This document shows positions 7,792 through 29,172 of a DNA stretch of 32,629 nt, in pieces. Source of the DNA: Burkholderia sp. Ac-20379 (GTDB taxonomy: Bacteria > Pseudomonadota > Gammaproteobacteria > Burkholderiales > Burkholderiaceae). The notes below the pieces were generated by a model. That model had not been told where the DNA came from. It saw nothing but the letters and a program-made list of their open reading frames with translations, and did not search any database. The position numbers were made by a program, and so were the translations under genes. Positions within the stretch are counted from its first letter, which is position 1, and every line of letters starts with the position of its first letter. The stretch lies in contig NZ_JAAGPF010000056.1 in NCBI RefSeq assembly GCF_017104645.1, positions 1 to 32,629 on the forward strand, read 5' to 3'.

Positions 7792-8715
7792 TTACCAGCC
7801 CTGATCCACCCGCTGCGGCCCGTCCGCGTGCTGCCCCAGGTACGCGCGCAGATAATCGACGAAGCACGCCACCTTCGCCGACAGATTCAACCGCTCCGGA
7901 AACACCGCATAAATATCGGCCGGCAATGTCTCGTGCTCGGGCAACACCTGCACGAGGCGGCCACTGCGCAGATACTTGGCCACGTCCCACTCGGCGCGCA
8001 TCAGGATGCCGCGATGCTCGAGTGCCCAGTTCAGCGCGACGCTACCGTCGTTGGTGCTGAGTTTGCCGCGCACTTTCACCGTTTCGGTCCGGCCTCCACG
8101 CGTCAGCCTCCAGTTGGCGTAGGCGGCATCGTTCTGGCGCAGCACGATACATTCGTGCGAGACCAGATCGTGCGGCATTTGCGGTGCGCCGGCGCGGCGC
8201 AGATAGCCTGGCGTGGCGACCAGCAAACGCCGGTTGCCGGCAATCCGCTTGGCCACCAGCCGAGAATCGGGCAGTTCTCCGAAACGAATCGACAGATCGA
8301 TCGCCTCGTCGGGCAAAGCCACCGGCCGGTCCGTCAAATGCAGCTGCACGTCCACGTCGGGATAGGCATCGCTGAACGCGGAAATCGCCGGCCCGATATA
8401 CGAGCGCCCGAATCCGAGCGGCGCATTCACGCGCAGCAGTCCCTTCGGCGCCGCGCGGCTGCTCGATACCAGCCGCTCCATCTCGTCGATGTCGCTGAGG
8501 ATCCGTCGCGCGTTGGCGAAATACACCTCCCCTTCGCTGGTCAGGCTGATGCGCCGCGTCGTGCGATTGAGCAGCCGCACGCCGAGCCGCGCCTCCAGCT
8601 GCGAGAGCCGGCGCGAGATGGCCGGCGGAGTCAGATTAAGCTCGCGCGCGGTCGCGGCGAGACTGCCGTGCTTGATGAGCAGGCAGAAGAAGCCCAGTTC
8701 GCTGTCCGTTCCCAT
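7792..8715 (-). CDS. LysR-family regulator (TtuA/TtdR/DmlR-like) divergent from the tartrate operon
   Basis: A 307-residue LysR-type regulator. The helix-turn-helix is at residues 15-45 (GSLAATARELNLTPPAISRR), followed by LEARLGVRLLNRTTRR and an effector-binding domain from about residue 90. LRVNAPLGFGRSYIGPAISAF is the signature of the large DmlR-type subgroup. It diverges from a carrier gene and ttdAB, the same layout as ttuA-ttuB in Agrobacterium vitis and ttdR-ttdA in E. coli. It therefore most likely senses tartrate or a related hydroxy acid and activates that operon. The ATG has no clear ribosome binding site. It is a paralogue of the LysR at 28249, with the same length and shared blocks such as WALE-H-GIL-RAEWD. 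Family is certain, effector inferred. Confidence 0.9.
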   Translation of the reverse strand: MGTDSELGFFCLLIKHGSLAATARELNLTPPAISRRLSQLEARLGVRLLNRTTRRISLTSEGEVYFANARRILSDIDEMERLVSSSRAAPKGLLRVNAPLGFGRSYIGPAISAFSDAYPDVDVQLHLTDRPVALPDEAIDLSIRFGELPDSRLVAKRIAGNRRLLVATPGYLRRAGAPQMPHDLVSHECIVLRQNDAAYANWRLTRGGRTETVKVRGKLSTNDGSVALNWALEHRGILMRAEWDVAKYLRSGRLVQVLPEHETLPADIYAVFPERLNLSAKVACFVDYLRAYLGQHADGPQRVDQGW

Positions 8716-8885
8716 TCGTAAATTTTTTGCAACTATGTATTAAGTTTCGAGCGATTCATTCCTTCGGTAGAGATCTTAATCTCCGCTCCACGTGTGGTCT
8801 ACAACAGGATTCGGCCACGCGGGTCCGATCGGCGGAGTGCGAGGCCGCCCCCCGATCGCGCATCCAACGAGAACGGAGACACCCC
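8716..8885. promoter_or_regulatory. Divergent promoter region between LysR and the MFS-ttdAB operon
   Basis: 170 bp, AT-rich at the LysR end. It contains a short palindrome GAGAT-CTTA-ATCTC (8770-8783), a plausible LysR operator half-site pair, about 100 bp before the carrier ATG. A divergent regulator-target arrangement is seen; binding is inferred. Confidence 0.4.
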
Positions 8886-10187
8886 ATGGATACCTCGCTC
8901 GAACAACGCACGCTGCGCCGGATCGGCTGGCGCATCGTGCCCTTCATCATGCTGCTCTACTTCGTCGCCTACATCGACCGCGTCAACATCGGTTTCGCGG
9001 CGCTGACGATGAAGACGGATCTCGGCTTCACGGCCTCGACCCTCGGCTTCGGCGCCGGCATCTTCTTCTGGGGCTACTTCATGTTCGAGGTACCCTCGAA
9101 CATCGTGCTGCACAAGGTCGGCGCGCGAATCTGGATCGCGCGCGTGATGGTGACCTGGGGCCTGATCTCGGCGGCGATGGCCTTCGTCACGGGCCCAGTC
9201 AGCTTCTATGTGATCCGCTTCCTGCTCGGCGCGGCAGAGGCGGGCTTCTTCCCCGGCATCATCCTTTACCTCAACTACTGGTTCCCAGCGCGACGGCGCG
9301 CCGGCGTCACAGCGCTGTTCATGGCGGCGGCGCCGATCTCGACGGCGATCGGGTCGCCAATCTCGGCCGCGCTGCTGCAAATGCAAGGCGTGATGGGCCT
9401 GGCCGGCTGGCAATGGCTGTTCGTCGTCGAGGCGGTACCGGCGCTGGTGCTCGGTGTGATGGTGTTCTTCTTCATGACCGACCGGCCCGAACAGGCTACC
9501 TGGCTGCGCGACGACGAACGCGCCTGGCTCGTCGCCACGTTGCGGGAAGAAGCCGCGAGCCGCACCGGCGGCGGTGCACACAGCATCTGGAGCGGCCTCG
9601 CCAACCCGCGCGTGCTGGCGCTCGCACTGATCTATTTCGGCACCTCGGCCGGCCTCTACACACTTGGCATCTGGTCGCCCCAGATCATCAAGCAACTCGG
9701 CGTGTCGTCGCTGACCGTCGGCTTCCTGAACGCTGTGCCGCCGGTGATCTCGGTCATCGCGATGGTGCTCTGGTCGCGTCATTCGGACCGCACCGGCGAG
9801 CGCACCTGGCACGTCGTGCTGGCCTGCGTCGCCGCAGCCATCGGACTGATCGTGGCAGCCGCCGCGAACAGCGCGGTCGGCTTGATCGCCGCGCTGACGC
9901 TCGTCAACGTCGGCATCAGCTGCGCGAAGCCGCCGCTCTGGAGCATGCCCACGATGTTCCTGTCCGGCGCGGCTGCCGCCACCGGCATCGCCACCATCAA
10001 TTCGATCGGCAACCTCGGCGGCTTCGCCGGGCCGGCCGTGATCGGCTGGCTCAAGGAAGAAACCGGCAGCTTCAGCGGCGGGCTGTACTTCGTCGCGGGC
10101 CTGCTGGTCATGTCCGCTGTCCTGACCATTTTGCTGTCGCGCACGAAAAAGCCCGTGGCGACCACGGCCGACGCGGCCGCGCACTGA
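8886..10187 (+). CDS. MFS carrier, anion:cation symporter family (TtuB-like tartrate carrier)
   Basis: A 433-residue major facilitator protein with about 12 membrane helices and a central cytoplasmic loop near residues 205-240. The first helix region (FIMLLYFVAYIDRVNIGFAA) and the loop motif FFPGIILYLNYWFPARRRA are hallmarks of the anion:cation symporter subfamily, which imports organic anions such as tartrate, galactonate and phthalate. CGGAGA stands 7 bp before the ATG at 8886. An in-frame extension upstream has no coding character. It is followed after 39 bp by ttdA, so carrier and dehydratase probably share one transcript. Context favours L-tartrate or a close dicarboxylate as substrate. 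It is a clear paralogue of the carrier at 25203-26510. Confidence 0.9.
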   Translation: MDTSLEQRTLRRIGWRIVPFIMLLYFVAYIDRVNIGFAALTMKTDLGFTASTLGFGAGIFFWGYFMFEVPSNIVLHKVGARIWIARVMVTWGLISAAMAFVTGPVSFYVIRFLLGAAEAGFFPGIILYLNYWFPARRRAGVTALFMAAAPISTAIGSPISAALLQMQGVMGLAGWQWLFVVEAVPALVLGVMVFFFMTDRPEQATWLRDDERAWLVATLREEAASRTGGGAHSIWSGLANPRVLALALIYFGTSAGLYTLGIWSPQIIKQLGVSSLTVGFLNAVPPVISVIAMVLWSRHSDRTGERTWHVVLACVAAAIGLIVAAAANSAVGLIAALTLVNVGISCAKPPLWSMPTMFLSGAAAATGIATINSIGNLGGFAGPAVIGWLKEETGSFSGGLYFVAGLLVMSAVLTILLSRTKKPVATTADAAAH

Positions 10188-10226
10188 CCCCCTCCCCCCC
10201 ACGGAATCATCCACAAGGAGAACAAC

Positions 10227-11126
10227 ATGGACAAGGTCGCTGCTACCCAGTCCCTGACGGACACCATGGCCCGCTTCACGGCCTATATCGGCAAACGCCT
10301 GCCCAAAGACGTCAAGACCAAGCTCGCGGAGCTGCGCACGCTGGAAACCAACCCGCTCGCGAAGTCCGTCTACGACTCGATGGCCGACAATCAGGAAGCC
10401 GCCGACAAGCTGAACCGCCCGAGCTGCCAGGACACCGGCGTGATCCAGTACTTCGTCGAAGCCGGCGCGCAGTTCCCACTGCTCGGCGAGATCGAGGAAA
10501 TCCTGCGCGGCGCCACCGAAGGCGCCACCGAAATGGGCCCGCTGCGCCACAACGCGGTGGAAACCTTCGACGAGAAGAACACCGGCACCAACACCGGCAC
10601 GCAGATTCCCTGGCTCGACTGGCGCATCGTGCCGGATTCGGACAGTTGCACGATCGACGTTTACATGGCCGGCGGCGGCTGCACGCTGCCGGGCGCGGCC
10701 AAGGTGTTGATGCCGGGCCAGGGCTACGAGGGCGTGGCCGAATTCGTGATGGACGTGATCACCGAGCGCGGCGTCAATGCCTGCCCGCCCCTGCTGGTCG
10801 GCGTCGGCGTCTCGACCTCGGTCGAAACGGCGGCACGCCTGTCAAAGCTCGCGATCCTGCGCCCCGTCGATTCGAAAAGCAGCAATGCGCGCGCGGCGCT
10901 GATGGAAGACCTGCTCGAGCAGGGGCTGAACCAGGTCGGCATCGGCCCGCAAGGCCTGACCGGCAACAACAGCGTGATGGGGGTGAATATCGAATCGTCG
11001 GCACGTCATCCGTCGACCATCGGCGTGGCCGTGAACACCGGTTGCTGGGCGCACCGACGCGGCAAGATTCGCATCAACGCGGATCTGACGTACGACATTC
11101 TGTCTCATGAAGGAGTGGTGCTGTGA
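10227..11126 (+). CDS. ttdA: L(+)-tartrate dehydratase, alpha subunit
   Basis: A 299-residue alpha subunit of the class I fumarase/tartrate dehydratase family. With TtdB it removes water from L-tartrate to give oxaloacetate in the cytoplasm. The three cysteines expected to hold the oxygen-sensitive [4Fe-4S] cluster are present: C67 (PSCQDTG), C186 (NACPPLLVG) and C273 ([10 protein letters not shown]). The blocks [26 protein letters not shown] and [14 protein letters not shown] follow E. coli TtdA (303 residues) closely. A good ribosome binding site, AAGGAG, precedes the ATG. The gene sits between the carrier and ttdB and overlaps ttdB by 4 bp. A two-subunit fumarase is the main alternative, but similarity to TtdB in the partner and the tartrate-type context make tartrate more likely. 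Confidence 0.93.
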
Positions 11127-11731
11127 AGAAGATTCTGACTACGCCAATCAAGTCGGAAGACCTCGAAGACCTGAAGGTGGGCGATGTGGTCTACCTGACT
11201 GGGCGTCTCGTGACCTGCCGTGACGTCGCGCACCGCCGCCTGATCGAACAGGGCCGCGAGCTGCCGGTGAACCTCGAGGGCGGCGCGATCTTCCACGCCG
11301 GACCGATCGTGCGCAAGAAGCCCGACGGCGGCTTCGAGATGGTCTCGATCGGCCCGACCACAAGCATGCGCATGGAGAAATTCGAGCGCGAGTTCATCGA
11401 GCAGACGGGTGTGAAGTTGATCGTCGGCAAGGGCGGCATGGGGCCGGAGACGGCCGCGGGATGTCAGGAGCACAAGGCCGTGCACGCGATCTTCCCGGGT
11501 GGCTGCGCGGTGCTGGCGGCCACGCTGGTCGAGGAAATCGAAGGCGCCGAATGGCAGGATCTCGGCATGCCGGAAACGCTGTGGATCAACCGCGTGCGCG
11601 AGTTTGGGCCGCTGATCATCTCGATCGACACCAAGGGCAACAACTTGATCCAGCAGAACAAGACGACGTTCAACGAGAAAAAGAAGCCGATTCTCGACGA
11701 GATCAGCAAGCAGCTCAGCTTCATCAAGTAA
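11123..11731 (+). CDS. ttdB: L(+)-tartrate dehydratase, beta subunit
   Basis: A 202-residue beta subunit (fumarase C-terminal domain). The start [20 protein letters not shown] and the blocks [45 protein letters not shown] and [14 protein letters not shown] match E. coli TtdB nearly residue for residue in places, and the length is almost the same (201). These blocks carry substrate-binding Arg, His and Lys residues at the subunit interface. Translation starts at GTG overlapping the ttdA stop (GTGA), with AAGGAG 8 bp before it inside ttdA. The two subunits are therefore made in equal amounts by coupling. A strong terminator at 11775-11817 closes the operon. Confidence 0.95.
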
Positions 11732-11774
11732 GGCAGGTTTCGCGGGCGGCACGACCGCCTATTCGGAACCGGTG

Positions 11775-11817
11775 CGGCGCGCCAGGCGGAACCTTCTGCC
11801 TGGCGCGCCGTTTTGTT
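11775..11817 (+). terminator. Rho-independent terminator after ttdB
   Basis: A 13-bp perfect stem (CGGCGCGCCAGGC paired with GCCTGGCGCGCCG) with a 10-base loop is followed by TTTTGTT. It separates the ttdAB operon from the convergent reductase gene; its T-tract overlaps that gene's stop codon. Confidence 0.92.
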
Positions 11818-12697
11818 ATGCGACGGCGTGACCAGCGAGCATTTCGAGCGCACACACCATTGCCGAGTGATCCCAGCTGGCACCGTCGTTTGCCACGCAG
11901 GCGTTGAACAGCTGCTGGCAGGTGGATGTGTTCGGCAACGCGACGCCGATCGCCTTCGCGCTCTGCAGCGCCAGGTTCAAATCCTTCTGGTGCAACGCGA
12001 TACGGAAGCCCGGCTCGAACTTGCGCTCGATCATCCGCTCGCCGTGCACTTCAAGAATGCGCGATGCGGCGAAGCCACCCATCAGCGCCTCGCGCACCTT
12101 GGCCGGATCGGCACCGGCCTTCGACGCGAACAGCAGCGCTTCGCCTACCGCCTCGATCGTCAATGCTACGACGATCTGGTTGGCCACCTTGCAGGTTTGC
12201 CCGGCACCCACTTCGCCCACGTGCGTGATGTTCTTACCCATCAGCGCGAGTAGCGGCCTGAGCGTCTCGAATGCACCTGCGCTGCCGCCGACCATGATCG
12301 ATAACGTCGCGGCCTTCGCGCCAAGTTCGCCGCCCGACACCGGTGCGTCGAGATACTCGCAGCCGAGCGCACGGATCCGCTCGCCGAAGCCCTGCGTCTC
12401 GATCGGGGAGATCGAGCTCATGTCCACTACCGTCTTGCCCTTGGTCAGCCCAGTAGCGACACCCTGCTCGCCGAACAGCACGCCGGTCACATCCGGCGTG
12501 TCGGGCAACATCATGAACACCGTGTCAGCGCGGCGCGCGACTTCGGCGGGCGATTCGACGCTGACGGCCTTGCGTTCCGCGATCGCCTTGGGCAGCGCGC
12601 CGCGCGTGTAGATGAACAGTTCGTGGCCGGCGTCGAGCAGATGCTGCGCCATCGGGGCGCCCATGATGCCGAGGCCGATGAATCCGAGTCGTGCCAT
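11816..12697 (-). CDS. 2-hydroxy-3-oxopropionate (tartronate semialdehyde) reductase
   Basis: A 293-residue beta-hydroxyacid dehydrogenase of the GarR/GlxR type, which reduces tartronate semialdehyde to D-glycerate with NAD(P)H. The N-terminal Rossmann motif is GFIGLGIMGAPMAQHLL (residues 5-21). The substrate-binding motif DAPVSGGELGA lies near residue 120. The catalytic Lys is in GAGQTCKVANQ near residue 170. The C-terminal signature FRIALHQKDLNLAL is near 235-250. The order and spacing match GarR throughout. AGGAG stands 7 bp before the ATG at 12697; the longer upstream frame is not coding. It follows the molybdopterin subunit gene by 167 bp, with an intrinsic terminator between, so it may have separate or attenuated expression. 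No glyoxylate carboligase or glycerate kinase gene is in the window. Confidence 0.92.
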   Translation of the reverse strand: MARLGFIGLGIMGAPMAQHLLDAGHELFIYTRGALPKAIAERKAVSVESPAEVARRADTVFMMLPDTPDVTGVLFGEQGVATGLTKGKTVVDMSSISPIETQGFGERIRALGCEYLDAPVSGGELGAKAATLSIMVGGSAGAFETLRPLLALMGKNITHVGEVGAGQTCKVANQIVVALTIEAVGEALLFASKAGADPAKVREALMGGFAASRILEVHGERMIERKFEPGFRIALHQKDLNLALQSAKAIGVALPNTSTCQQLFNACVANDGASWDHSAMVCALEMLAGHAVA

Positions 12698-12864: not shown

Positions 12865-15147
12865 TCAGGCGTTCAACAAGGCAAGCAGGTTGGCCGGCGT
12901 GAACGGAATCGCGCGTGGGCGCACGCCGGTGGCGTCTTGGATCGCGCTCGCCACCGCCGACGGTATCACCGCGCAAGTCGGCTCTCCCGCGCCGACCGGC
13001 GGCTGGTCGGGCCGGTCGAGCAACACGACGTCCACCGTCTCGGGCAGCTCGGGGAACTTCAGAAGCCGATACGTGAGCCAGTCGACGCTGGTCACGGCCG
13101 AGCGCGTGAAATGCACCTGCTCGAACATGGTGCGGCTCAGCGTCTGCACGATTTCGCCTTCGACTTGGTTACGCACGCCGTCGGGATTCACGACGAGGCC
13201 GCAATCGTGCGCGATGGTCACTTTCTTGATGACTACCACGCCCGTGCGCCGATCGAGTTCGATCTCGACGACCGAGGCCACATACGCGTGATTCGGCTCG
13301 TAGCGCACGCAGGCCATTCCGCGACCCGTTACCACGTCGCCCGACGGCTTCAACGCGTGCAGGGGACGGCGCTGCCAGCCTGTTCGCCTCTCGACGGCGT
13401 GCAACACGGCCTGCGCGCGCCAATCCGAAAAATGCCGCAACCTGAATTCGATCGGATCAGCCTTGGCCGCCACCGACAGCTCGTCCATGAACGATTCGTT
13501 CGCATAGGTGTGCTGGACGCGGCCAGGCCCGCGCAACCAGGACGGCCGCAGGGGCGTGCGCGTGGTGCGATTGACCGTCACGCGCATGTTGGGCACATCG
13601 TAGGGCGCGACCATATTGAATTCCATGCCGCCGGCGTTGTCGGGCTCGCCTTCCATCGGTGACGACCGCATCAGCTCGGCCGCGAGTAGCGGCACGTCAG
13701 CGTTGCCGGACACGCGATATGGCACCCAGGTCGTGTATTGCCAAGCAGTAATGCGTCCGTTTTCGTCGAGCGCGCCGGCCAGTTCGGACACCACGGCCGC
13801 GCCCTTCGGGTCCCAACCATGCTCGTCCTCGCGCATCCATTGAAGCCGCACAGGCCTGTCGATCGCCCGAGACAGCAACGCGGCCTCCGCCGTGGCGTCC
13901 TCGTGGCCATTGCGCCCGTAGCAGCCCGCCCCCTCGACGTAGATCAGCCGGACATCCTGCTTCGGGAGGCCCATCATCGCTGCGATCTGGTCTCGCGTCA
14001 TGTGCGGCGCCTGGGTGGACGACCACACAGTCAGCTTGCCGTTACGCCAGTCGCCGATCGCGCACGACGGGCCGATCGAGCCATGGGTCTGCATCGGCCA
14101 GCCATAGGTGGCGTGCACGGTGCGCTTCGCATCGGACTCTGCGATGGCCGCGGCCGGGTCGCCTCGGGAGGCGAGTGTGCCCTGTTCGTGGACCGGCAGC
14201 GCGCGCACCGCGTCGAACAGCTTCGCCTCGTCGGGCAGCCCAGTCCACCGAGACCAGCGCGCCACGATAGCGCGCGAGGCGCGAATCGCGGCCCATTCGC
14301 TCGTGGCGATCGCGGCTAGCAGGTTGCCGATCCGCACCGTCTGAAGGAAGCCGGGCACGGCGCGCGCGGGGCCGTCGTCGAACGAGAGCAGTTGCGCGCC
14401 GTAGGCATTCGGATGGATTACACGCGCGTGCACCATGCCGTCCACCCGCACGTCCTGCATGAATTCGAATTCGGCGAACACCTTGGCGCGTACGTCGTCG
14501 CGCGGAACCGGCTGGCCGACCACTCGGTATTGCGACACCGGCTTGAGCGGCGCATGCGGATCGAGCGCGAGTTCGAGCGGCCGATTAGCCAGCAGCGCGT
14601 GGTACGCGGTGCCGTTCTTGTCGCGGGTGTCGCGGTACGCACGTCCGTTGGCCAGCCGCACCGAGGCGGGCGGCACGCGCCACGCCTTCGATGCCACGTC
14701 ACGGATCGCGGCGGCAGCCGTGGCCGCCGCTTGCCGGAGCTGAATGCCGGCCGCCTGCACCGACATCGAGCCGTTGGTCGGTCCCTGATCGACGGTCAGC
14801 GCGGTGTCGCCCTGCACCACGCGCACCTGGCCGATTGGGAACTCGAGCTCCTCGACCACCATCTGCGCGAGCGCCGTGGTGTTTCCAGTGCCGAGGTTCA
14901 CCTTGCCGGTGTAAAGCGATAGCATGCCGTCGTCGCCGAGCGCGAGAAATGCGTCGACGCGTGCGGCGTCTACTGTTTTCGGTACGGCCGCAGGCAGCGC
15001 GCCTTCGGCAGCGATTTCGGCCGAACCCGAAGGCAACGTGGCGGAATTGGCGAACGACGGCCGCGCGAGCGAGAAGCCCACGATTAGCGCCGCGCCTTGC
15101 TTCAGGAAATCGCGTCGGGACGACGTAAGCGGTTCAGGCGCGTGCAT
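12865..15147 (-). CDS. Molybdopterin-binding subunit of a xanthine oxidase-family dehydrogenase (IorB type)
   Basis: A 760-residue large subunit of the isoquinoline 1-oxidoreductase/aldehyde dehydrogenase branch of the xanthine oxidase family. The N-terminus has a Tat signal (SSRRDFLKQGAALIVGFSLA), so the folded enzyme with cofactor is exported and works in the periplasm. Molybdopterin-binding blocks are spread along the chain: GKVNLGTGNTTALAQ, QGPTNGSMSVQAAG, PMQTHGSIGPSCA, EGAGCYGRNGHEDA and RGPGRVQHTYANESFMDEL. The catalytic Glu is E722 in PVGAGEPTCAV. It starts on the base after the stop of the [2Fe-2S] subunit and would pass electrons through that subunit to the tri-haem cytochrome encoded upstream. 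Substrates of this branch include aldehydes and N-heterocycles; which applies here is unknown. Confidence 0.93.
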   Translation of the reverse strand: MHAPEPLTSSRRDFLKQGAALIVGFSLARPSFANSATLPSGSAEIAAEGALPAAVPKTVDAARVDAFLALGDDGMLSLYTGKVNLGTGNTTALAQMVVEELEFPIGQVRVVQGDTALTVDQGPTNGSMSVQAAGIQLRQAAATAAAAIRDVASKAWRVPPASVRLANGRAYRDTRDKNGTAYHALLANRPLELALDPHAPLKPVSQYRVVGQPVPRDDVRAKVFAEFEFMQDVRVDGMVHARVIHPNAYGAQLLSFDDGPARAVPGFLQTVRIGNLLAAIATSEWAAIRASRAIVARWSRWTGLPDEAKLFDAVRALPVHEQGTLASRGDPAAAIAESDAKRTVHATYGWPMQTHGSIGPSCAIGDWRNGKLTVWSSTQAPHMTRDQIAAMMGLPKQDVRLIYVEGAGCYGRNGHEDATAEAALLSRAIDRPVRLQWMREDEHGWDPKGAAVVSELAGALDENGRITAWQYTTWVPYRVSGNADVPLLAAELMRSSPMEGEPDNAGGMEFNMVAPYDVPNMRVTVNRTTRTPLRPSWLRGPGRVQHTYANESFMDELSVAAKADPIEFRLRHFSDWRAQAVLHAVERRTGWQRRPLHALKPSGDVVTGRGMACVRYEPNHAYVASVVEIELDRRTGVVVIKKVTIAHDCGLVVNPDGVRNQVEGEIVQTLSRTMFEQVHFTRSAVTSVDWLTYRLLKFPELPETVDVVLLDRPDQPPVGAGEPTCAVIPSAVASAIQDATGVRPRAIPFTPANLLALLNA

Positions 15148-15621
15148 TCAGGCTCCGCTGGCTTTGAGGATGGCGCGGACGATCCGAAGATGCGTGCCGC
15201 AGCGACAGAGGTTCGACGCTAGGGCGTCCTTCACCTGCTGCTCAGTCGGCTTCGGGACGCGCGTGAGCAGCCCGCGCGCGGCGATCAGCATGCCGTTGAT
15301 GCAATAGCCGCACTGCACGGCCTGCTCGGCGACGAACGCGGCCTGAAGTGGATCGGGGGCGGCCGGCGTGCCCATGCCCTCGAGCGTCACAACTTGATGG
15401 CCGACCGCCGACGATACCGGCATCACGCACGAGCGCCGCGCCACGCCATCGACCAGCACCGAGCACGCGCCGCATTGCCCGAGCCCACAGCCGAAGCGTG
15501 GCCCCTTGAGCTCGAGCTCGTCGCGTAACACGTACAACAACGGCGTGTCAGGGCTGGCGTCGACCGCCACGGGTCGGCCGTTGACGTGCAGCGTAATTGG
15601 GTGTGCAACGGACGTCGTCAT
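15148..15621 (-). CDS. [2Fe-2S]-binding subunit of the molybdenum dehydrogenase (IorA type)
   Basis: A 157-residue electron-transfer subunit with two iron-sulfur clusters. The plant-ferredoxin-type cluster is held by C45, C50, C53 and C65 (GCGLGQCGACSVLVDGV). The C-terminal four-helix cluster is held by C104, C107, C139 and C141 (VQCGYCINGM and NLCRCGTH). All eight ligands are present and length is standard. It moves electrons from the molybdenum site to cytochrome c. It has no signal peptide and so probably leaves the cell as a complex with the Tat-signal-bearing large subunit. Its ATG overlaps the stop of the cytochrome gene by 4 bp (ATGA), and its stop directly precedes the large-subunit ATG, indicating tight translational coupling. 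Confidence 0.95.
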   Translation of the reverse strand: MTTSVAHPITLHVNGRPVAVDASPDTPLLYVLRDELELKGPRFGCGLGQCGACSVLVDGVARRSCVMPVSSAVGHQVVTLEGMGTPAAPDPLQAAFVAEQAVQCGYCINGMLIAARGLLTRVPKPTEQQVKDALASNLCRCGTHLRIVRAILKASGA

Positions 15622-16874
15622 GGTTGAGTCCCGGTTCGACGGCGCACGGCGGCGACGTCATGAGTCGACACGGCTGGCGCACGATTGCCCCAGCTGTTGC
15701 GCAGATAGGTCAGCACGTCGGCTACCTCGGTGTCATCAAGCGCCGAGCGATGCGCCGGCATCGGATACGGTGCGGGCTGACCGTCGATCACGAGCGGATC
15801 GGCGCCGTTCAGCGTCACGTTGATCAGCGACAGCGGATCGGTTTCCAGTAGGTTCGGATTGCCAGCCAACGGCGCGAGATACGGCGGCGTACCTGCGCCG
15901 TTCGCCAGATGGCAGGCCACGCAGAAGTTGCCGTAGATGCGTGCGCCGCGCAGCACCGAGGCGGCATCTGCTGGGGCTAGTGGAGCGTGGCCGTCCTTGC
16001 CCTCGTCATGCACCGGCAGCGATTTCAGATACACGGCCATCGCATGCCGGTCGGCCTCGGTCAGCCATTGCGTGCTGTGGTTGATCACGTCGGTCATCGG
16101 GCCAAACGCGGTGGCGTGGGCGTTCGCGCCGGTTCCCAGAAACGCGGCAAGATCGTCGGTGCTCCAACGGCCGAGCCCGGTATCGGCGTCACCGCGAAGG
16201 TTCGAGGCGAACCATCCGTCGAGCGCCGCGCCTGCCAGAAAAGCGTCGCCGTGCTCGTCGATGGCCTTTTCCTGGAATGCCACGCCGCGTGCGGTGTGGC
16301 ACGCGCTGCAATGGCCAAGCCCCTCGACCAGATACGCGCCGCGATTCCATTCGACGCTGCGGTCGGGGCGCGGCGAGAAACGCGTGTCGTCGAGGAACAG
16401 TGCGTTCCAGACCTTCATCGGCCAGCGCATCGACAGCGGCCAGCGAATGTCCACCGGTCGATCGGACTGCTTGACGGGCGCGACGCCGTGCAGGAAGTAT
16501 GCGTAGAGCGCGCGCACGTCGTCGTCGCTGACCTTCGCGTATGACGTGTACGGCATCGCCGGATACAGGTTGTGGCCGTCACGCGCCACGCCACCCTGTA
16601 CAGCCCTCGCGAAATCAGCCTCGGTGTAGCGCCCGATACCGGTTGCCGCGTCGGGTGTGATGTTGGTCGAATAGATCGCGCCGAGTGGCGTAGCCATCTT
16701 CAGGCCGCCTGCGAACGGCTCTCCGCCCTTCGCCGTGTGGCAGGCCGCGCAATCGGCGGCGGCCGCCAAATAGCGGCCGCGCGCGATCTGCGCCTGATCG
16801 GTTTCGGGTTGGGCGGCGCGCGCCGTTCCGAGCGCGCCGAACAGCGCGAGCACGACAAGCATGCGTTTGGTCAA
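15618..16874 (-). CDS. Tri-haem cytochrome c subunit of the molybdenum dehydrogenase
   Basis: A 418-residue exported cytochrome with a Sec signal peptide (residues 1-20, LVVLALFGALGTARA). It has three haem c sites: CAACH at 42-46, CSACH at 189-193 and CVACH at 318-322. Proteins of this layout are electron-acceptor subunits of membrane-bound alcohol and aldehyde dehydrogenases and pass electrons to ubiquinone. It is coupled to the two molybdenum-enzyme subunits by a 4-bp overlap, so it most likely serves them. The start is TTG at 16874, chosen because GAGGAG stands 6 bp before it, while the ATG five codons in is too far from that site. It is a clear paralogue of the cytochrome at 18668-20050. 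Confidence 0.93.
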   Translation of the reverse strand: MTKRMLVVLALFGALGTARAAQPETDQAQIARGRYLAAAADCAACHTAKGGEPFAGGLKMATPLGAIYSTNITPDAATGIGRYTEADFARAVQGGVARDGHNLYPAMPYTSYAKVSDDDVRALYAYFLHGVAPVKQSDRPVDIRWPLSMRWPMKVWNALFLDDTRFSPRPDRSVEWNRGAYLVEGLGHCSACHTARGVAFQEKAIDEHGDAFLAGAALDGWFASNLRGDADTGLGRWSTDDLAAFLGTGANAHATAFGPMTDVINHSTQWLTEADRHAMAVYLKSLPVHDEGKDGHAPLAPADAASVLRGARIYGNFCVACHLANGAGTPPYLAPLAGNPNLLETDPLSLINVTLNGADPLVIDGQPAPYPMPAHRSALDDTEVADVLTYLRNSWGNRAPAVSTHDVAAVRRRTGTQP

Positions 16875-17969: not shown

Positions 17970-18635
17970 TCAGATCACGCACGCCTGGTTGTCATAATTC
18001 ACGCCGGGGCGCTTCTTCAGCGTGACAATCACCCGCACGTTCGGTGTGTCGCCGACCTGCCGCGCGGTGTGGCCGACCGGGTCACCGAGGTGTTCGGCAT
18101 GCGCGCCTTGATCCGAATTGAACTGAATCTGCCCCGGCCCCTGGCGCAGCACCGAGCCGTCGGCCGTGCGGATCTCCCATTGCCCCGACAGGTCGATGAC
18201 CCATTGCGGACCCGGTGCGTGATGCCAATCGCCGTACCATCCCTTCGGCAGCACCGAATAGACGATGCTCTGGATGTCCTCCGGCGCATACCCCATGTAG
18301 TAAGGCGCGGCGGGCGGCGCGAAGCCGTGCAGCTTGAGGCCCTTTAACACGCAGCGGCTGACATGGGTGCGTCCGTGGTCGTCGGCCCAGACGTTCGAAT
18401 ACGGGATCTCGTCGAGCGCTAGCAGTTGTGCGTCGCTCGCACCGGCGGGAGCCAGCTCGGTGCTGAGCGGGATCTTCGGCTTGGCTTTGGCGCTTTGCTG
18501 CACGGGCGTCAACATCTGCATCGACATCGAGTTCGCAACGGGTGCGTCGGGCGTCACCGCCGGGGTTTGTCCGAACGCGAGCGAACTCGCCGCGAGGCCA
18601 AGGGCACCAACGAGCTTCCGGCAACGTGCTTCCAT
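17970..18635 (-). CDS. Secreted cupin-like protein of unknown function
   Basis: A 221-residue protein with a signal peptide (about residues 1-23, LVGALGLAASSLAFGQ) and a low-complexity linker rich in Ala, Pro and Met up to about residue 60. The C-terminal half resembles a single cupin barrel: HHAPGPQWVIDLSGQWEIRT, then GPGQIQFNSDQ and GAHAEHLGDPVGH, containing His, Glu and Gln residues that could bind a metal. AGGAGA stands 7 bp before the ATG. It lies inside the oxidase operon between the FAD-enzyme cytochrome and xdhC, with short gaps, so it is likely made with both enzymes. It might be a periplasmic lactonase, isomerase or assembly factor; none of these is shown by the sequence. Confidence 0.75.
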   Translation of the reverse strand: MEARCRKLVGALGLAASSLAFGQTPAVTPDAPVANSMSMQMLTPVQQSAKAKPKIPLSTELAPAGASDAQLLALDEIPYSNVWADDHGRTHVSRCVLKGLKLHGFAPPAAPYYMGYAPEDIQSIVYSVLPKGWYGDWHHAPGPQWVIDLSGQWEIRTADGSVLRQGPGQIQFNSDQGAHAEHLGDPVGHTARQVGDTPNVRVIVTLKKRPGVNYDNQACVI

Positions 18636-20064: not shown

Positions 20065-21840
20065 TCAGACGGACATCAGCGGCGCGGTCTGGCGCAGGTA
20101 CTGCTGCCGGATCGCGGCGGCCGTCCAGTACGCGAGCGCACATACCAGCCCGGTTGGGTTGTAGCCGATGCCGTTCGCGAACAGGCCCGAGCCTGCGGCA
20201 AATACGTTCGGCACGTCCCAGCTTTGCCCGTAACGATTGACCACGCTGGTGCGTGGGTCGGTGCCCATCGCCACGCCGCCGGACCAGTGCGTGGTCTGGT
20301 ACGGGCGCAGGTCGAAATGCTGGCCGAGCTGCATGACGTCGACGTGATACGACTTCGGCTTCATCTCACGCGCAATCCGCTCGGCCTGCTTCGTCACGTA
20401 CTGGCTCATGCGGATGTCGTTGTCTTGCCAGTCGAACGTGAAGCGCAAGAGCGGCTGGCCGAAGGCGTCGCGATAGGTCGGATCGAGGTCGACGTAGTTG
20501 TTCCGGTACGTCATGTTCGAGCCGTGGCAGATGATCTCGACGAAGTGGTTGTAGCTGTCGACGACGCCCTGCTTCCAGCCCGCGCCCCACTTCGGCGTGC
20601 CCGGCGGCAGTGCAACGTTGGCGATCGGCTTCACGCCGGCCGGGTTGCACCAGATCGGCGAGCCGCCGACGAAGCCGAGCGGGCCGTGATCGAAGTTGTC
20701 GGCGTTGAATTCGTCGCAGGCCACGGCGTTGCCGCCCGCGCCGATGAAGTTGTTGGTGTGGACATCCTTGTCGAAGTAGACGCCGATCGTCGAGACGGTC
20801 TGATACGACACGTTGCGCCCCACCGCACCCTCGCCACTCACGGGATCGAACGGCTTGCCGATACCTGACAGCAGGAACAGCCGCGCGTTGTTATAGGCGA
20901 AAGTGCCGGCGATAACGATCTCGGCTGGCTGACTGACGAGCCGGCCCGCGCCATCGACATAGGTCACGCCGGTCGCACGCTTCTTCGTCGAATCGAGGTC
21001 GATGCGCAGCACGTTGCTGTTGGCGCGCAACTCGAACAGCGGCGAGCGCACGAGCGCCGGCATGATCGACACCTGCGGCGTAGCCTTCGAGTAGTTGTAG
21101 CAGGCGAACCCCGAGCAGAATCCGCAGAAATTGCACGGGCCCATCGTGCAGCCGTATTGATTCGTATAGGGCACGGAAGCATTCGCCGACGGCTCGCGGA
21201 ACGGCTGGAAGCCGGCCGCGCGCGCCGCCTCGCCGAACAGATGTGCCGTGTACGGAACCTTCTGCGCCGGCGTCGGGAACGGGGTCGATCGGTTGGCCTC
21301 GAACGGATTGCCGTCGCCAACCACTTGGCCGTTGACGCGATAAGCCTGCCCCGAGGTGCCCATCATCTGTTCGGAGAACGCGAAGTGCGGCTCGAGCTCG
21401 TCGTAGCTGACGCCGTAATCCTGCAACTGCATGCCGGCCGGTATGAACTTGGCGCCGTATTTCTCGCGATAGTGGCTACCCATGCGCAGTTCCTCGGGAT
21501 GCACACGCCAGTGCTGCCCCGACCAGTGCAGGCCCGCGCCACCGACGCCGGTGCCCGGCTTGAACGCGCCGATCTGCCGATACGGCAGCGCCTGATCGGC
21601 GGCCGTATGGCGGAATGTGAAGCTAGATTTCGACATGTCCTGAAGCAACTTGCCGCGCTGGATGTAGGTCAGCTCGTCAATAGTCTTCGGATAGGCGCCA
21701 TCCGGATAGGTGTCGCGCGCCTCGCCGCGTTCGAGCGCTACCACGCGCAGACCCGCCTCGGTTAGTTCCTTCGCCAGAATGGCGCCAGTCCAGCCGAATC
21801 CGACAATCACTACGTCGGCCGGCTTCATTACCTTGTCCAC
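20065..21840 (-). CDS. GMC-family FAD-dependent dehydrogenase, catalytic subunit (gluconate 2-dehydrogenase/FAD-GDH alpha type)
   Basis: A flavoprotein of about 591 residues that oxidises an alcohol group of a sugar, sugar acid or polyol. The FAD-binding Rossmann fold opens with VVIVGFGWTGAILAKEL. A second FAD block is GTGVGGAGLHWSGQHWR. The GMC active-site pair is His in QTTHWSGGVAMGTDPRT and Asn in NGIGYNPTGLV near the C-terminus. Near residues 233-249 is a Cys-rich stretch (CTMGPCNFCGFCSGFAC), where FAD-glucose and fructose dehydrogenases hold a [3Fe-4S] cluster. I prefer the GTG at 21840 because AGGG lies 8 bp before it; GTG at 21846 and ATG at 21828 are alternatives. There is no signal peptide, so it should be exported with the Tat-bearing subunit 3 encoded just upstream. 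The true substrate is not known. Confidence 0.92.
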   Translation of the reverse strand: MDKVMKPADVVIVGFGWTGAILAKELTEAGLRVVALERGEARDTYPDGAYPKTIDELTYIQRGKLLQDMSKSSFTFRHTAADQALPYRQIGAFKPGTGVGGAGLHWSGQHWRVHPEELRMGSHYREKYGAKFIPAGMQLQDYGVSYDELEPHFAFSEQMMGTSGQAYRVNGQVVGDGNPFEANRSTPFPTPAQKVPYTAHLFGEAARAAGFQPFREPSANASVPYTNQYGCTMGPCNFCGFCSGFACYNYSKATPQVSIMPALVRSPLFELRANSNVLRIDLDSTKKRATGVTYVDGAGRLVSQPAEIVIAGTFAYNNARLFLLSGIGKPFDPVSGEGAVGRNVSYQTVSTIGVYFDKDVHTNNFIGAGGNAVACDEFNADNFDHGPLGFVGGSPIWCNPAGVKPIANVALPPGTPKWGAGWKQGVVDSYNHFVEIICHGSNMTYRNNYVDLDPTYRDAFGQPLLRFTFDWQDNDIRMSQYVTKQAERIAREMKPKSYHVDVMQLGQHFDLRPYQTTHWSGGVAMGTDPRTSVVNRYGQSWDVPNVFAAGSGLFANGIGYNPTGLVCALAYWTAAAIRQQYLRQTAPLMSV

Positions 21841-21904
21841 TATCACAACCCTGTTCAGCTAATGCGGCGGCCACGCGATCGCGCGCGCCCGTCAATGACC
21901 ACGC

Positions 21905-24802: not shown

Positions 24803-24804
24803 AC

Positions 24805-25181: not shown

Positions 25182-25202
25182 ATGTTCCGCACGTCGTCAG
25201 CG

Positions 25203-26510
25203 TCAGTGCCCCGAACCGCGAGACACCGGTCCGGCCAACGTCTGCGCGCGCCCGATCAGCAAGGTGACAAGCGCCGACACCACGAGCGTGGCACCGACGA
25301 CGTAGAGTCCGGCAGCATAGCTACCGGTCGCGGCCCGGAGCCAGCCGATCGCGGTTGGCCCAACGAAGCCGCCGAGGTTGCCAAGCGAATTGATCAGTGC
25401 AATCCCGGCGGCCGCGCCAGCTCCAGTCAGGAACTGCCCCGGCATCGCCCAAAGCGGTGCCTTGGCTGCGCTGATGCCGATATTGACGATGGCCAGCGCC
25501 ACCACGATCGCCAACCCACCCGACGCGTGACCGGCGATCACAAAGCCGGCGAAGGCAAGCAGGCACGGCAGCACGACGTGCCACACGCGTTCGCCAGTGC
25601 GATCCGAGTGACGCGCCCAAGCGATCATCGCAACACCAGCCAGGATGCTCGGCAGTCCGGTCATCAGGCCTGTCGAGAACGCGCCGAAACCGTATTGCCG
25701 GACGATCATCGGCGCCCATAGACCGAGCGTGTAGAGCCCTGCCGAGGTGCCGAAATAGACGAGCGCCAGCGCCAGCACGCGCGGATCTCGAAGCGCATTC
25801 CACGCGCCCGAGGTCTGGCCACCTGACGCCGCGCGCGCGCCCGCTTCGGCGGCGAGCTTGCCGATCAGCCAGTTGCGTTCGTCGGCGTCAAGCCAGGTCG
25901 CCTTGGCCGGCGATTCCGTCATGCGACGCAATACTACGAAGCCGAGGATCACGGCCGGCACCGCCTCGATCAAGTAGAGCATCTGCCAGTCGGCAAGGCC
26001 GAACACCGAAGGCAGCTGCATGATCGCGCCCGACAGCGGCGAGCCGATCGCCGTCGAGATCGGCGCCGCCGCCATGAACCAGGCGGCAGCGACCGCGCGC
26101 TGACGGGTCGGAAACCACTGACTCAGATAGAGGATGATGCCGGGGAAAAAGCCTGCCTCTGACACGCCCAGCAGGAAGCGCAGCAGGTAAAAACTGTGAG
26201 GGCCGGTCACGAACGCCGACAGCCCCGAGACGAGCCCCCAGGTCACCATCACGCGCGCGATCCAGAGCCGCGCGCCGACGCGATGCAGGATCAGGTTCGA
26301 CGGCACCTCGCAAAGAAAGTAGCCGATGAAGAACAGCCCACCGCCGAGGCCGAAGGCCGATGGCGACAGCCCGATATCGTGATTCATCGAGATCGCGGCG
26401 AAGCCGACATTGACGCGATCGAGGAAACTGACGAAATACAACAGCATCACGAACGGAATGATCCGCCACATCAGTTTCCGGCCAACCCGGTGTTCGATTT
26501 CCTGCTCCAT
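25203..26510 (-). CDS. MFS carrier, anion:cation symporter family (second copy)
   Basis: A 435-residue major facilitator protein with about 12 membrane helices. It shares the hallmark segments of the carrier at 8886-10187: LLYFVSFLDRVNVGFAA, FEGY-like helix 2 (GYFLCEVPSNLILHRVGARLWIARVMVTWG), EAGFFPGIILYLSQWFP and ARHSDRTGERVWHVV. It belongs to the organic-anion branch (tartrate, phthalate, galactonate carriers). A strong GGAGGAG site precedes the ATG. It stands alone between the terminator at 25143 and the histidine kinase gene. The close likeness to the first carrier suggests duplication followed by divergence, perhaps for a precursor or stereoisomer of the first carrier's substrate. Confidence 0.9.
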   Translation of the reverse strand: MEQEIEHRVGRKLMWRIIPFVMLLYFVSFLDRVNVGFAAISMNHDIGLSPSAFGLGGGLFFIGYFLCEVPSNLILHRVGARLWIARVMVTWGLVSGLSAFVTGPHSFYLLRFLLGVSEAGFFPGIILYLSQWFPTRQRAVAAAWFMAAAPISTAIGSPLSGAIMQLPSVFGLADWQMLYLIEAVPAVILGFVVLRRMTESPAKATWLDADERNWLIGKLAAEAGARAASGGQTSGAWNALRDPRVLALALVYFGTSAGLYTLGLWAPMIVRQYGFGAFSTGLMTGLPSILAGVAMIAWARHSDRTGERVWHVVLPCLLAFAGFVIAGHASGGLAIVVALAIVNIGISAAKAPLWAMPGQFLTGAGAAAGIALINSLGNLGGFVGPTAIGWLRAATGSYAAGLYVVGATLVVSALVTLLIGRAQTLAGPVSRGSGH

Positions 26511-26644: not shown

Positions 26645-28021
26645 TCAAGCTGACTCCCGGCAGAGGATCGTCGCACGCAAACCCGGCTGCGCATCGTCGA
26701 GACGCAAGCCAAAACCATGCAAGCGCACCACCGCAGCAACCACGCTGAGGCCAAGTCCGTAGCCGGCGGTCGTGCGCGATGCGTGGCCGCGATAATGGCG
26801 CGCCAGCACCACCTCGCGTTCCGCTTCGGGAATGCCAGGGCCGTCATCGCTAACTTCCACGCGCGCACCGTTCGCGCTGTCGTGCAGCGCGAGCGCAACG
26901 CGGCCACCGGACCGCGTGAACTTGATGGCGTTATCAAGCAGATTGCTCAGAGCTTCGAAGATCAGTTCGCGGTCAGCCTGCACGAAGACGTCGGTCGACG
27001 CTGCGATCTCCAGTGCGCACCCTTCGCTGTCGGCCAGAGGCGCATAGAGCTCGCCCAGCTCTTCCACCAGTTCGCGCAGATTCACGCGCGAAAAACCGAG
27101 GCGGCGCTGGCTCGCGTTCATTTCAGAAATGCGCAGCATCGCGCGAAAACGCTGGATCAAGCTGTCCGCCTCGTCGCCTGTACGTGCAAGCAGCTTCTGC
27201 AATTCAGGGATCTGTGCGAGATCAGGATGCCCCGCGGCTTGACCGAGCAGCGTCCGCAAGCGCGACAGCGGCATGCGCAGATCGTGCGCGATGCCGTCGC
27301 ATGCCACCTGCATTTCACCCATCAGCCGCTCCACCTCGGCGAGCATCTGATTGACGAGCCGCGACAACATATGGATTTCATCGCCTCCATTGACGGGAAG
27401 GCGCCGGCTGATCTCGCCGTCGGCGATGCGCTCGGTGACCTCACGGATCGCGCCAATCCGACGCCCCTGCCTCCATGCCATGAATCCGCCAGTGGCTAGA
27501 CAGACGACAAGACACAGCAGGCCGCAAGCAAGCAGCACACGCCCGATGCTGTCGCGGACCTGCAACGAATCCGACATGTCGCGCACGATCACGAGGCGAT
27601 CGCCGTCGGGCCGACGCGCCGCCATCGCGCGCACGCTGCCGTTCAACAAGGTATCGCCGATGCGCAATGTGCCGTGCAGTGTGCGGCCACGCCGATCGTC
27701 GGCGAGGCCGTCGGGCATCACGCGCAGCTCGCCGGCCAGAGGCTGGTCGGTACGATCGAACAGGCCGTATACGTTCGCGCGTACCTGCGCATGCTCGACA
27801 CGTCCGACCATCGCGGCCGGTAACGCCGCATCAGGCACGGCATCGAAATAGATCAGCTGCCAGCGCAGGATCGTGTCCGCATCGGACTCGATGATTGAGG
27901 TCGCGGCCACGCCAACGACGCCGAGCAGGAACATCCACGATACCAAAAACAGCAGCGTCAGGCCCAGCGTGATGCGCAACGTGGACGAGCGCCAACGGCG
28001 CGATCGAACACCAGTTTTCAT
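26645..28021 (-). CDS. Sensor histidine kinase without an adjacent response regulator
   Basis: A 458-residue membrane-bound histidine kinase. The first membrane helix is at about residues 17-42 and a periplasmic sensor region at about 43-158. The second helix is at about 160-182 (VLLACGLLCLVVCLATGGFM), followed by a HAMP linker. The phosphorylation site is H246 (CDGIAHDLRMPLSRLR). The ATP-binding domain has an N box with N364 (LSNLLDNAIKF), a G1 box (SDDGPGIPE, 391-399) and a G2 box (TAGYGLGLSVV). All catalytic elements are present. Such kinases nearly always follow a response regulator gene, but the 227 bp upstream to the LysR gene contains none. Its partner must be encoded elsewhere or has been lost. 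Confidence 0.93.
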   Translation of the reverse strand: MKTGVRSRRWRSSTLRITLGLTLLFLVSWMFLLGVVGVAATSIIESDADTILRWQLIYFDAVPDAALPAAMVGRVEHAQVRANVYGLFDRTDQPLAGELRVMPDGLADDRRGRTLHGTLRIGDTLLNGSVRAMAARRPDGDRLVIVRDMSDSLQVRDSIGRVLLACGLLCLVVCLATGGFMAWRQGRRIGAIREVTERIADGEISRRLPVNGGDEIHMLSRLVNQMLAEVERLMGEMQVACDGIAHDLRMPLSRLRTLLGQAAGHPDLAQIPELQKLLARTGDEADSLIQRFRAMLRISEMNASQRRLGFSRVNLRELVEELGELYAPLADSEGCALEIAASTDVFVQADRELIFEALSNLLDNAIKFTRSGGRVALALHDSANGARVEVSDDGPGIPEAEREVVLARHYRGHASRTTAGYGLGLSVVAAVVRLHGFGLRLDDAQPGLRATILCRESA

Positions 28022-28248
28022 GCGTTCCGCACGTACCAGCTTCCGCTGGACATCGACCGCGATCGCGGCGCATGATGCACGCCGGGCGAGGCTTGGAAGA
28101 ACCGGTACGTAATCCGAAACGTCGTGTGTTTCTGCGGGAAAGGCATCCGCGGGTCCGTCCAGAGTAGCAAGAATACGGCGACTGTAGCGTCTTTCCCCCC
28201 TCGCATTCCCGGCCTCGCTTTCACAGCATCCTTAATTCTGATTCACAA
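28022..28248. other. Region between the kinase and LysR genes; no response regulator found
   Basis: 227 bp. A 68-codon minus-strand frame (GTG at 28224, stop overlapping the kinase ATG as ATGA) runs through it. Its translation (for example TTFRITYRFFQASPG) matches no receiver or DNA-binding domain. The LysR end carries TTAATTCTGATTCACA (28232-28247), close to a 16-mer in the porin upstream region. Confidence 0.4.
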
Positions 28249-29172
28249 ATGACTCGCGATGAAACGATCCAGCCCACCGACCTGGGCTTCTTCTCGATCC
28301 TGGCCGGCTCCGGCAGCCTGAGCGCCGCCGCCCGCGAGCTTGGGCTCACCGCAGCCGCCGTCAGCAAACGGCTCACGCAGATGGAGCAGCGCGCCGGGGT
28401 GACGCTCGTCAATCGCACCACGCGCCGGATGATGCTGACGCCGGAAGGCGAGCTCTATGTCGAGCACGCGCGACGCATCCTCGACCAGATCGATATCCTC
28501 GGCGAATTGCTCGGGAACGCGAAGGAAAATCCAAAGGGCTTGCTGCGCGTCAATGCGACGCTCGGCTTCGGCCGCAACGTAGTCGGTCCCGCGATCTCGC
28601 GTTTTGTGTCGCGCTATCCTGACGTCGATGTGCAACTGCAGTTGTCGGTCGCGCCGCCGCCGCTGACCGACGATGCGTTCGACGTCTGCATCCGCTTCGG
28701 CGAGCCGCCCGACACGCGCGTGATCGCGAGACAGCTGGTGTCGAACCGGCGCCTGTTCTGTGCGGCGCCGGACTACATCCAGCGCTGCGGGGCACCAACC
28801 AGCGTCGCCGACTTGGCACGGCACAACTGCATCTCGATCCGTCAGGGCGACGAAGCCTACGGCACCTGGCGCCTGAGCCCGGCGCGCGGCACGTCGCGTC
28901 AATCGGAGTCGATCCGCATCGCCGGCAACCTGACTACCAACGACGGCGAGATCGCCGTCAAATGGGCGCTCGACGGGCACGGCATCCTGCTGCGCGCCGA
29001 GTGGGACATCGCTCGCTATCTCGCCGACGGCCGGCTCGTGCAGGTGCTACCCGACTATGCGTCGCCGCACGCCGACATCTACGCGGTCTACGCGCAGCGG
29101 CACCAGATGTCGGCGCGGATCCGCATCTTCGTCGATTTCCTCACCGACGAGCTGGCGACACGCGCACGCTGA
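28249..29172 (+). CDS. LysR-family regulator (DmlR/TtuA-like, second copy)
   Basis: A 307-residue LysR-type regulator of the DmlR-like subgroup. The helix-turn-helix is GSLSAAARELGLTAAAVSKR, then MEQRAGVTLVNRTTRR. The effector domain starts near residue 90 with the subgroup signature LRVNATLGFGRNVVGPAISRF. Length and many blocks (for instance NDG-IAVKWALDGHGILLRAEWD) match the regulator at 7792-8715, so they are paralogues. No Shine-Dalgarno sequence precedes the ATG. Instead the 16-base sequence TTAATTCTGATTCACA lies immediately upstream, close to a sequence in front of the porin cluster, which suggests that this protein controls both itself and that cluster. That control is inferred from the repeated sequence only. 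Confidence 0.9.
   Translation: MTRDETIQPTDLGFFSILAGSGSLSAAARELGLTAAAVSKRLTQMEQRAGVTLVNRTTRRMMLTPEGELYVEHARRILDQIDILGELLGNAKENPKGLLRVNATLGFGRNVVGPAISRFVSRYPDVDVQLQLSVAPPPLTDDAFDVCIRFGEPPDTRVIARQLVSNRRLFCAAPDYIQRCGAPTSVADLARHNCISIRQGDEAYGTWRLSPARGTSRQSESIRIAGNLTTNDGEIAVKWALDGHGILLRAEWDIARYLADGRLVQVLPDYASPHADIYAVYAQRHQMSARIRIFVDFLTDELATRAR

Follow-up and report, generated by a model that had tools for sequence, protein, structure and literature searches.

Excerpts of Price et al. 2019 (PMC6365646) describe an IorAB-like molybdenum dehydrogenase that, together with a cytochrome c, oxidizes deoxyribose in the periplasm, with uptake through a carrier of the major facilitator superfamily (MFS), and propose a vanillin dehydrogenase of the same architecture as the molybdenum enzyme considered here. 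According to the accessible part of PMC11066805, plants make tartrate from ascorbate by routes in which the enzymes of some steps are unidentified, and oxidation of threonate to tartrate, also by unidentified enzymes, has been proposed in Geraniaceae. The L-threonate pathway LtnD-OtnI-OtnK-OtnC is outlined in excerpts of PMC12540250. Here, we analyze a stretch of 32,629 nucleotides (hereafter, the window) from Burkholderia sp. Ac-20379, part of a 7.4-Mb draft genome in 826 contigs, which contains a 20-gene block joining two periplasmic respiratory oxidases with genes for tartrate uptake and breakdown. Because much the same set clusters in two other genomes, the results suggest a rare island with an undescribed route from a sugar acid to tartrate. 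The reading we favor, with a probability of about 0.5, is a co-inherited catabolic island that would make L-tartrate outside the inner membrane and consume it inside.

Genes were typed by Pfam and NCBIfam profiles with curated cut-offs, complemented by PDB sequence searches for selected proteins, and the survey covered 398 genomes of the family, 265 of the order, 65 of the genus and a plasmid collection. The components named in the original prediction, an oxidative pathway combining two exported dehydrogenases with tartrate dehydratase, a tartronate semialdehyde reductase and paired carriers, are all present as open frames and were typed with these profiles. The block lies between atoE (5412-7181) and lrp (29200-29709) and has a LysR gene at each end (7792 and 29172). 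On the left, LysR1 diverges from the run MFS1-ttdA-ttdB. The minus strand carries an oxidase run with the genes for a porin, subunit 3, a GMC dehydrogenase, a tri-haem cytochrome, a cupin-like protein, XdhC, another tri-haem cytochrome, a 2Fe-2S subunit and a molybdenum subunit, in which adjacent genes range from overlapping by 4 bases to lying 58 bases apart; glxR lies 167 bases beyond the molybdenum subunit. The right part consists of genes for HbpS-like, tautomerase and ABM proteins on the plus strand, followed by MFS2, a histidine kinase and LysR2.

A search for this set in other genomes, proposed with the original prediction, revealed that the oxidase units and ttdAB recur together in three genomes of at least two genera, spanning 19-21 kb. 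Apart from the window, these are Paraburkholderia tropica (L012 and L160) and a genome of another genus (G328; L122 and L143), each with much the same set in about 19 kb. Across the three clusters, identities reach 66-77% for the molybdenum unit, 92% for ttdA, 97% for ttdB, 78% for MFS2, 72-76% for LysR2 and 69-81% for the cupin-like protein, and each cluster includes a unit of GMC protein, subunit 3 and cytochrome. In P. tropica and G328, ttdAB follows the molybdenum subunit on the same strand at a distance of about 0.25 kb, whereas in the window it faces this subunit; other TtdA-like matches in these two genomes are only 29% identical. Both clusters contain a single LysR and a single MFS gene, of the LysR2 and MFS2 types, located between the molybdenum unit and the porin, so that the oxidase cluster itself, independently of ttdAB, includes a carrier and a regulator of tartrate type. 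GlxR, XdhC, the tautomerase and the kinase have no match in these two clusters, and both add a YdfG-like short-chain dehydrogenase/reductase (SDR) that scores under the YdfG cut-off. The G328 cluster also includes a tartrate dehydrogenase (TIGR02089, 559 bits against a cut-off of 470), an enzyme encoded elsewhere in the genomes of the window and P. tropica (87% and 92%); the typed genes of the window's block include no TIGR02089 member. The rarest marker of the island is the cupin-like protein, which at 69% identity or more was observed only in the three clusters, every one with ttdAB. In the family it is found at 70% or more in two of 398 genomes (its own and G328) and at E <= 1e-10 in 16, and at E <= 1e-40 it is found in one of the 265 genomes of the order, its own.

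The genomic site points in the same direction. In two genomes of the same genus (G014 and G028), whose aceE-like genes are the nearest to that of the window (89% and 88%), aceE-like, lrp and atoE follow the order of the window, and lrp and atoE are about 4 kb apart, the stretch between them holding a deaminase-like gene (recognized by eye) and further coding sequence. The block replaces this stretch, with no clean empty site, and is lineage-specific because the flanks lie so close together in these two genomes. A chance neighborhood was rejected on two grounds, the presence of the set in three genomes and the lack of the block at this site in two of the same genus, and we regard the block as a real, recurring unit with high confidence. 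G+C content in 2-kb windows varies from 59 to 68% over the block without a clear step. Third-position G+C is lower in the 12 block genes that passed the filter (0.80-0.87) than in the eight flanking frames that did so (0.88-0.94), a difference that is suggestive only. As for the mode of spread, integration at a tRNA gene was rejected because none was found in the window, and spread on known plasmids was rejected because the relatives in the plasmid collection, which may omit records near the window's own genome, are distant (cupin-like protein, 39% at best; molybdenum subunit, all under 60%; GMC protein, 66.7% at best).

TtdA (10227..11126, plus strand) and TtdB (11123..11731, plus strand), the genes of which overlap by 4 bases, exceed the L-tartrate equivalog cut-offs (NF006084, 529 bits against 365; NF006082, 374 against 264), and TtdAB is accordingly a predicted L(+)-tartrate dehydratase. 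The divergent regulator LysR1 (7792..8715, minus strand) is TtdR-like, with TtdR as its nearest model at 236 bits, under the cut-off of 398. The nearest model of both carriers, MFS1 (8886..10187, plus strand) and MFS2 (25203..26510, minus strand), is a D-galactonate transporter, for which they score 386 and 346 bits, both under the cut-off of 395. Judged by gene company, both carriers appear to be of tartrate type: MFS1 is of the L-tartrate cassette type, and the MFS2 type accompanies tartrate dehydrogenase in G328, on contig C206 of the window's genome and on P. tropica contig C45, and ttdAB in G352, where LysR2-MFS2-ttdAB stands in place of LysR1-MFS1-ttdAB. The LysR2 type (28249..29172, plus strand) likewise keeps company with tartrate dehydrogenase. 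On C45 (L257, 8421-17968), the tartrate dehydrogenase and the MFS2-type carrier lie near another porin, a small cytochrome and a second molybdenum dehydrogenase that is only distantly related (28% and 45%). The reductase gene glxR (11816..12697, minus strand) encodes a GlxR/GarR-like tartronate semialdehyde reductase (TIGR01505, 394 bits against 341) that falls under the cut-offs of PRK15059 (437 against 451) and PRK11559 (299 against 397) and scores 155 bits, against a cut-off of 350, on the L-threonate dehydrogenase model; it is the second paralog in the genome, 63% identical to a copy on C344. Tartrate dehydrogenase yields a three-carbon oxo-acid, which GlxR could reduce, or GlxR could serve a glyoxylate branch. 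We would guess that the YdfG-like SDR fills this role in the other two clusters.

The molybdenum unit has the make-up of IorAB-like cytochrome dehydrogenases. The large subunit (12865..15147, minus strand) is IorB-like, with MoCoBD domains, the GAGE form of the GxGE motif and the motif SRRDFL, by which export through the twin-arginine translocation (Tat) pathway is predicted; it adjoins a 2Fe-2S subunit with eight cysteines (15148..15621, minus strand) and a tri-haem cytochrome c with three CXXCH motifs, recognized by Pfam (15618..16874, minus strand), and is followed by an XdhC-type maturation factor (16892..17935, minus strand). Its best PDB match is the large subunit of the aldehyde dehydrogenase 8gy3 (8gy3_C; E 1.4e-50). 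Because the unit shares the architecture of the deoxyribose dehydrogenase and the proposed vanillin dehydrogenase and has this best match, oxidation of aldehydes or lactols would be the natural expectation. The molybdenum subunit is found at 68% identity or more in five of the 398 family genomes, and at E <= 1e-180 in 17.

Membrane-bound dehydrogenases of the gluconate 2-dehydrogenase or 2-ketogluconate dehydrogenase type are composed of a GMC protein, a subunit 3 and a tri-haem cytochrome. The second oxidase has these three genes in tandem: a tri-haem cytochrome c with three CXXCH motifs and an uncertain start codon (18668..20050, minus strand), the GMC large subunit, a flavin adenine dinucleotide (FAD) dehydrogenase (20065..21846, minus strand), and subunit 3 (PF13618; 21905..22606, minus strand). 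The original prediction of a Tat-exported FAD dehydrogenase is thus borne out for the unit and corrected for the GMC protein itself, which lacks a signal peptide; a Tat-type signal, RRAFLR (recognized by eye), is carried by subunit 3. The GMC protein is 57-67% identical to copies in Pseudomonas, Pantoea, Acetobacter and its own genus. In a tree of 30 rows, which includes no characterized reference protein, the window and P. tropica fall into an 11-row clade (100/100) sister to the widespread gluconate-2-dehydrogenase-type clade, and the window's protein does not group with that presumed gluconate 2-dehydrogenase clade, of which the genome keeps a separate copy on C516. At E <= 1e-290, the protein is found in 10 of 398 family genomes, the nine others at 67-74%, and within the genus, none of the other 64 genomes has it above 68%. 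The genome carries six GMC large subunits of this type at E <= 1e-100 (43-100% to the window's; contigs C557, C516, C67, C290 and C256), and the widespread copies of the genus are about 67% identical to the window's.

Between the two oxidase units lies the gene of the secreted cupin-like protein (17970..18635, minus strand). The gene was predicted correctly, and its membership in the cupin family is tentative: the protein has no Pfam, NCBIfam or PDB match, and its plasmid relatives (28-39%) carry, for the most part, the annotation cupin-domain or hypothetical protein. In an alignment of 13 rows, H138 and H189 are conserved in all 13 and Q144 in 10.

From this gene content we infer the direction of flow, with tartrate as the oxidase product, and the chemistry of every step. 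The porin would admit a polyhydroxy acid, to be oxidized by the gluconate-2-dehydrogenase-type flavocytochrome and by the molybdenum cytochrome dehydrogenase of the IorAB/aldehyde dehydrogenase type, and the tri-haem cytochromes would carry the electrons from both oxidases to the respiratory chain. The secreted cupin-like protein may act on an intermediate, perhaps by C-C cleavage or isomerization. MFS1 and MFS2 would then import L-tartrate, and TtdAB would dehydrate it to oxaloacetate; part of the tartrate may pass through tartrate dehydrogenase (encoded on C206 here and within the cluster in G328) to the three-carbon oxo-acid and, by GlxR, to glycerate. That the oxidases feed tartrate we consider about an even chance. 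The pathway of the original prediction gains from the recurrence of the oxidases with ttdAB, from the single lineage-specific block and from the tartrate-cassette type of the carriers, and is tentative in its split between oxaloacetate and glycerate, GlxR being found only in the window's cluster and the others having the YdfG-like SDR.

The strongest competing explanation, which we hold to be a serious if lesser possibility, is that of independent modules: an L-tartrate cassette, a second tartrate-type carrier with its regulator and periplasmic dehydrogenases acting on other compounds of the habitat, with no common pathway. Several observations weigh for it and against a coupled pathway. TtdA is present at 89% or more in 21 of the 398 family genomes (28 at E <= 1e-100, the other seven at 75-80%), and the ttdAB neighborhoods were read in all 21, including G328 and the window, and in one of the seven. 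None of the 19 other loci has a molybdenum, 2Fe-2S, GMC, cytochrome or cupin-like match in 19-20 kb; the MFS1 type (77-83%) adjoins ttdAB in 17 of them and the LysR1 type (79-84%) in 14, and a tartrate dehydrogenase (85-90%) is nearby in nine. Three of the five genomes with the molybdenum unit (G145, G168 and G195; 68-70%) lack ttdAB and the other block parts in 40 kb, and ttdAB was not found in the 20 kb around any of the nine other GMC relatives in the family. Among 48 named GMC loci, a match to the cupin-like protein or the 2Fe-2S subunit occurs at that of P. tropica alone, and the other 47 have no cupin or molybdenum-unit match. The GMC unit of G328 is from another subfamily (45%). The ttdAB tree of 23 rows is too flat to split the cluster-borne copies from others; by path, the window is nearest to P. 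tropica, G352 and G328, a placement that lacks support. No shared LysR operator was found in 13 intergenic stretches, in a scan confined to perfect 15-base T...A palindromes and exact 10-base words. In the window, a terminator-like stem-loop of 17 pairs with a T tail (11774..11811, plus strand) parts the convergent ttdB and glxR, and thus ttdB from the oxidase operon; it is the longest of 10 terminator-like matches (next longest, 11 pairs), a count close to the shuffle mean of 8.4. Finally, no gene in the block forces tartrate to be the oxidase product, and the substrates of the oxidases may merely share a source with tartrate. Because ttdAB, the molybdenum unit and the GMC relatives mostly occur without each other, the block is built of modular parts that are rarely combined. 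The original prediction had named separate occurrence of the oxidase units as evidence against itself, and this is in part what was found; the cupin-like marker at 69% or more, however, turned up in none but ttdAB-bearing clusters. Gene order also speaks against independent modules: in P. tropica and G328, ttdAB comes after the molybdenum subunit and is read in the same direction, in the window it lies next to the operon in a different layout, and each of the three oxidase clusters includes a tartrate-type carrier and a LysR gene.

Within the favored reading of a tartrate-forming island, the likeliest substrate would be a C4 aldonate such as L-threonate, oxidized through a C4 aldehyde to tartrate, with gluconate or 5-ketogluconate, cleaved at C4-C5, as the second candidate. 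This order, with C4 aldonates as our best lead, follows from the C4-acid neighbors of the GMC clade, the Geraniaceae threonate proposal (excerpts of PMC11066805) and, by our own reasoning, the fact that C1-C4 of L-threonate, D-gluconate, D-galactonate, D-xylonate and L-arabinonate have the L-tartrate configuration. Of the nine other members of the GMC clade, three have C4-acid (tetronate) or PdxA-type genes at a distance of 10 kb or less: L115 has LtnD, OtnK and OtnC above cut-off; L116 has a DUF1537-type kinase (best model D-threonate kinase, 166 bits against 450) and a PdxA that passes the PdxA cut-off; and L113 has a PdxA homologue under cut-off. A further member, L114, adjoins an arabinonate-dehydratase-like gene. 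The tetronate/PdxA-type queries matched none of 20 loci of the widespread copy and none of six loci of a 55-57% copy, a comparison biased in that the three positive loci were spotted by eye and supplied the queries, the 20 controls were given no reading by eye and belong to a single genus in which synteny is shared, and the L116 kinase and the L113 and L116 PdxA proteins score under the D-threonate cut-offs. GMC enzymes of this type, moreover, usually oxidize secondary alcohols, a poor fit to C4 of threonate. These points count against the threonate lead.

As a special case of the favored reading, a route from 5-ketogluconate appears improbable. Here, the GMC enzyme would oxidize C5 of gluconate, the cupin-like protein, helped by the tautomerase or the ABM protein, would cleave C4-C5, and the molybdenum enzyme would turn tartaric semialdehyde and glycolaldehyde into L-tartrate and glycolate, with GlxR serving the glycolate/glyoxylate branch. 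Formation of tartaric semialdehyde from 5-ketogluconate has been proposed for plants and for engineered Gluconobacter (excerpts of PMC11066805 and PMC12016104), and the configuration of gluconate, the sister position of the widespread GMC clade and the aldehyde dehydrogenase match of the molybdenum subunit fit it; neither a transketolase nor another known C4-C5 cleaving enzyme is found among the 20 typed genes of the block, the cupin-like protein is without a family, and GlxR is absent from the other clusters. That TtdAB and the carriers act on an analogue of tartrate, another hydroxy-diacid made by the oxidases, is very unlikely, since both subunits exceed the L-tartrate cut-offs and resemble the copies of the 19 oxidase-free loci (TtdA, 89-92%; TtdB, 90-96%, 97% in G352), even if the carriers score under the D-galactonate transporter cut-off and specificity is not readable from sequence.

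The remaining genes of the block encode a general porin (PF13609; 22613..23656, minus strand; 64-67% in both other clusters), a secreted HbpS/GlcG-like protein (PF03928; 24056..24526, plus strand; 56-57% in both), a 4-oxalocrotonate-tautomerase-type protein (PF01361; 24617..24802, plus strand), an ABM-domain protein (PF03992; 24805..25101, plus strand; 35-38% in both) and a HAMP-domain sensor histidine kinase (26645..28021, minus strand) without an adjoining response regulator. Between atoE and LysR1, a short minus-strand reading frame (7256-7699) is outside the recurring set. Beyond the block, an AceE-like gene (at 29882; 29816-32605) adjoins the Lrp-type regulator and scores 1697 bits, against 1408, on TIGR03186 (AKGDH_not_PDH); within the genus, 35 of 65 genomes have a copy at 74% or more, besides a second copy at 56-58%.

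The claim of the original prediction that no described pathway has this gene set agrees with the literature searched: no published account of the set was found among the matches listed, in a coverage that takes in few subscription papers, and the accessible part of PMC9007349 makes no mention of tartrate, threonate or molybdenum. If the favored reading is true, the island would offer the missing plant-type activity, oxidation of tartaric semialdehyde or the cleavage that generates it, in one tractable cluster, with a possible use in L-tartrate production. It is conceivable, and in our view rather unlikely, that the flavocytochrome, the molybdenum dehydrogenase and a new cupin-like enzyme form L-tartrate by respiratory periplasmic oxidation of a sugar acid of plant origin, either ketogluconate or threonate released when ascorbate is broken down; bacteria would then have an equivalent of the routes by which plants turn ascorbate into tartrate. 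Even with independent modules, the locus provides a compact, testable set of two respiratory dehydrogenases and a secreted protein outside known families.

Among known systems, the L-threonate pathway (excerpts of PMC12540250) also handles a C4 sugar acid, and its LtnD, OtnK and OtnC are found near the GMC relative at L115; none of the three is among the typed genes of the block. A deoxyribose-type pathway was rejected because the deoxyribonate SDR, the lactonase and the beta-keto acid cleavage enzyme are absent among the typed genes between 7792 and 29172. The deoxyribose system, as far as the excerpts of PMC6365646 describe it, and the block are alike in the molybdenum and 2Fe-2S subunits, the cytochrome c, the Tat motif on the large subunit, the two MFS genes and, as predicted for the block, the completion of acid breakdown in the cytoplasm; unlike that system, the block adds ttdAB, the GMC flavocytochrome unit, the cupin-like protein and the porin. 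The aldehyde dehydrogenase 8gy3 is a distant relative only, and the window's molybdenum unit differs from it in being tied to ttdAB. With the gluconate 2-dehydrogenase and 2-ketogluconate dehydrogenase type, the GMC unit shares the three-gene architecture. As to the tartrate cassettes of the family, the window has LysR1-MFS1-ttdAB in full and, from the LysR2-tartrate dehydrogenase-MFS2 cassette that is complete on C206, the carrier and the regulator; unlike the window, the other ttdAB loci have no oxidase genes nearby.

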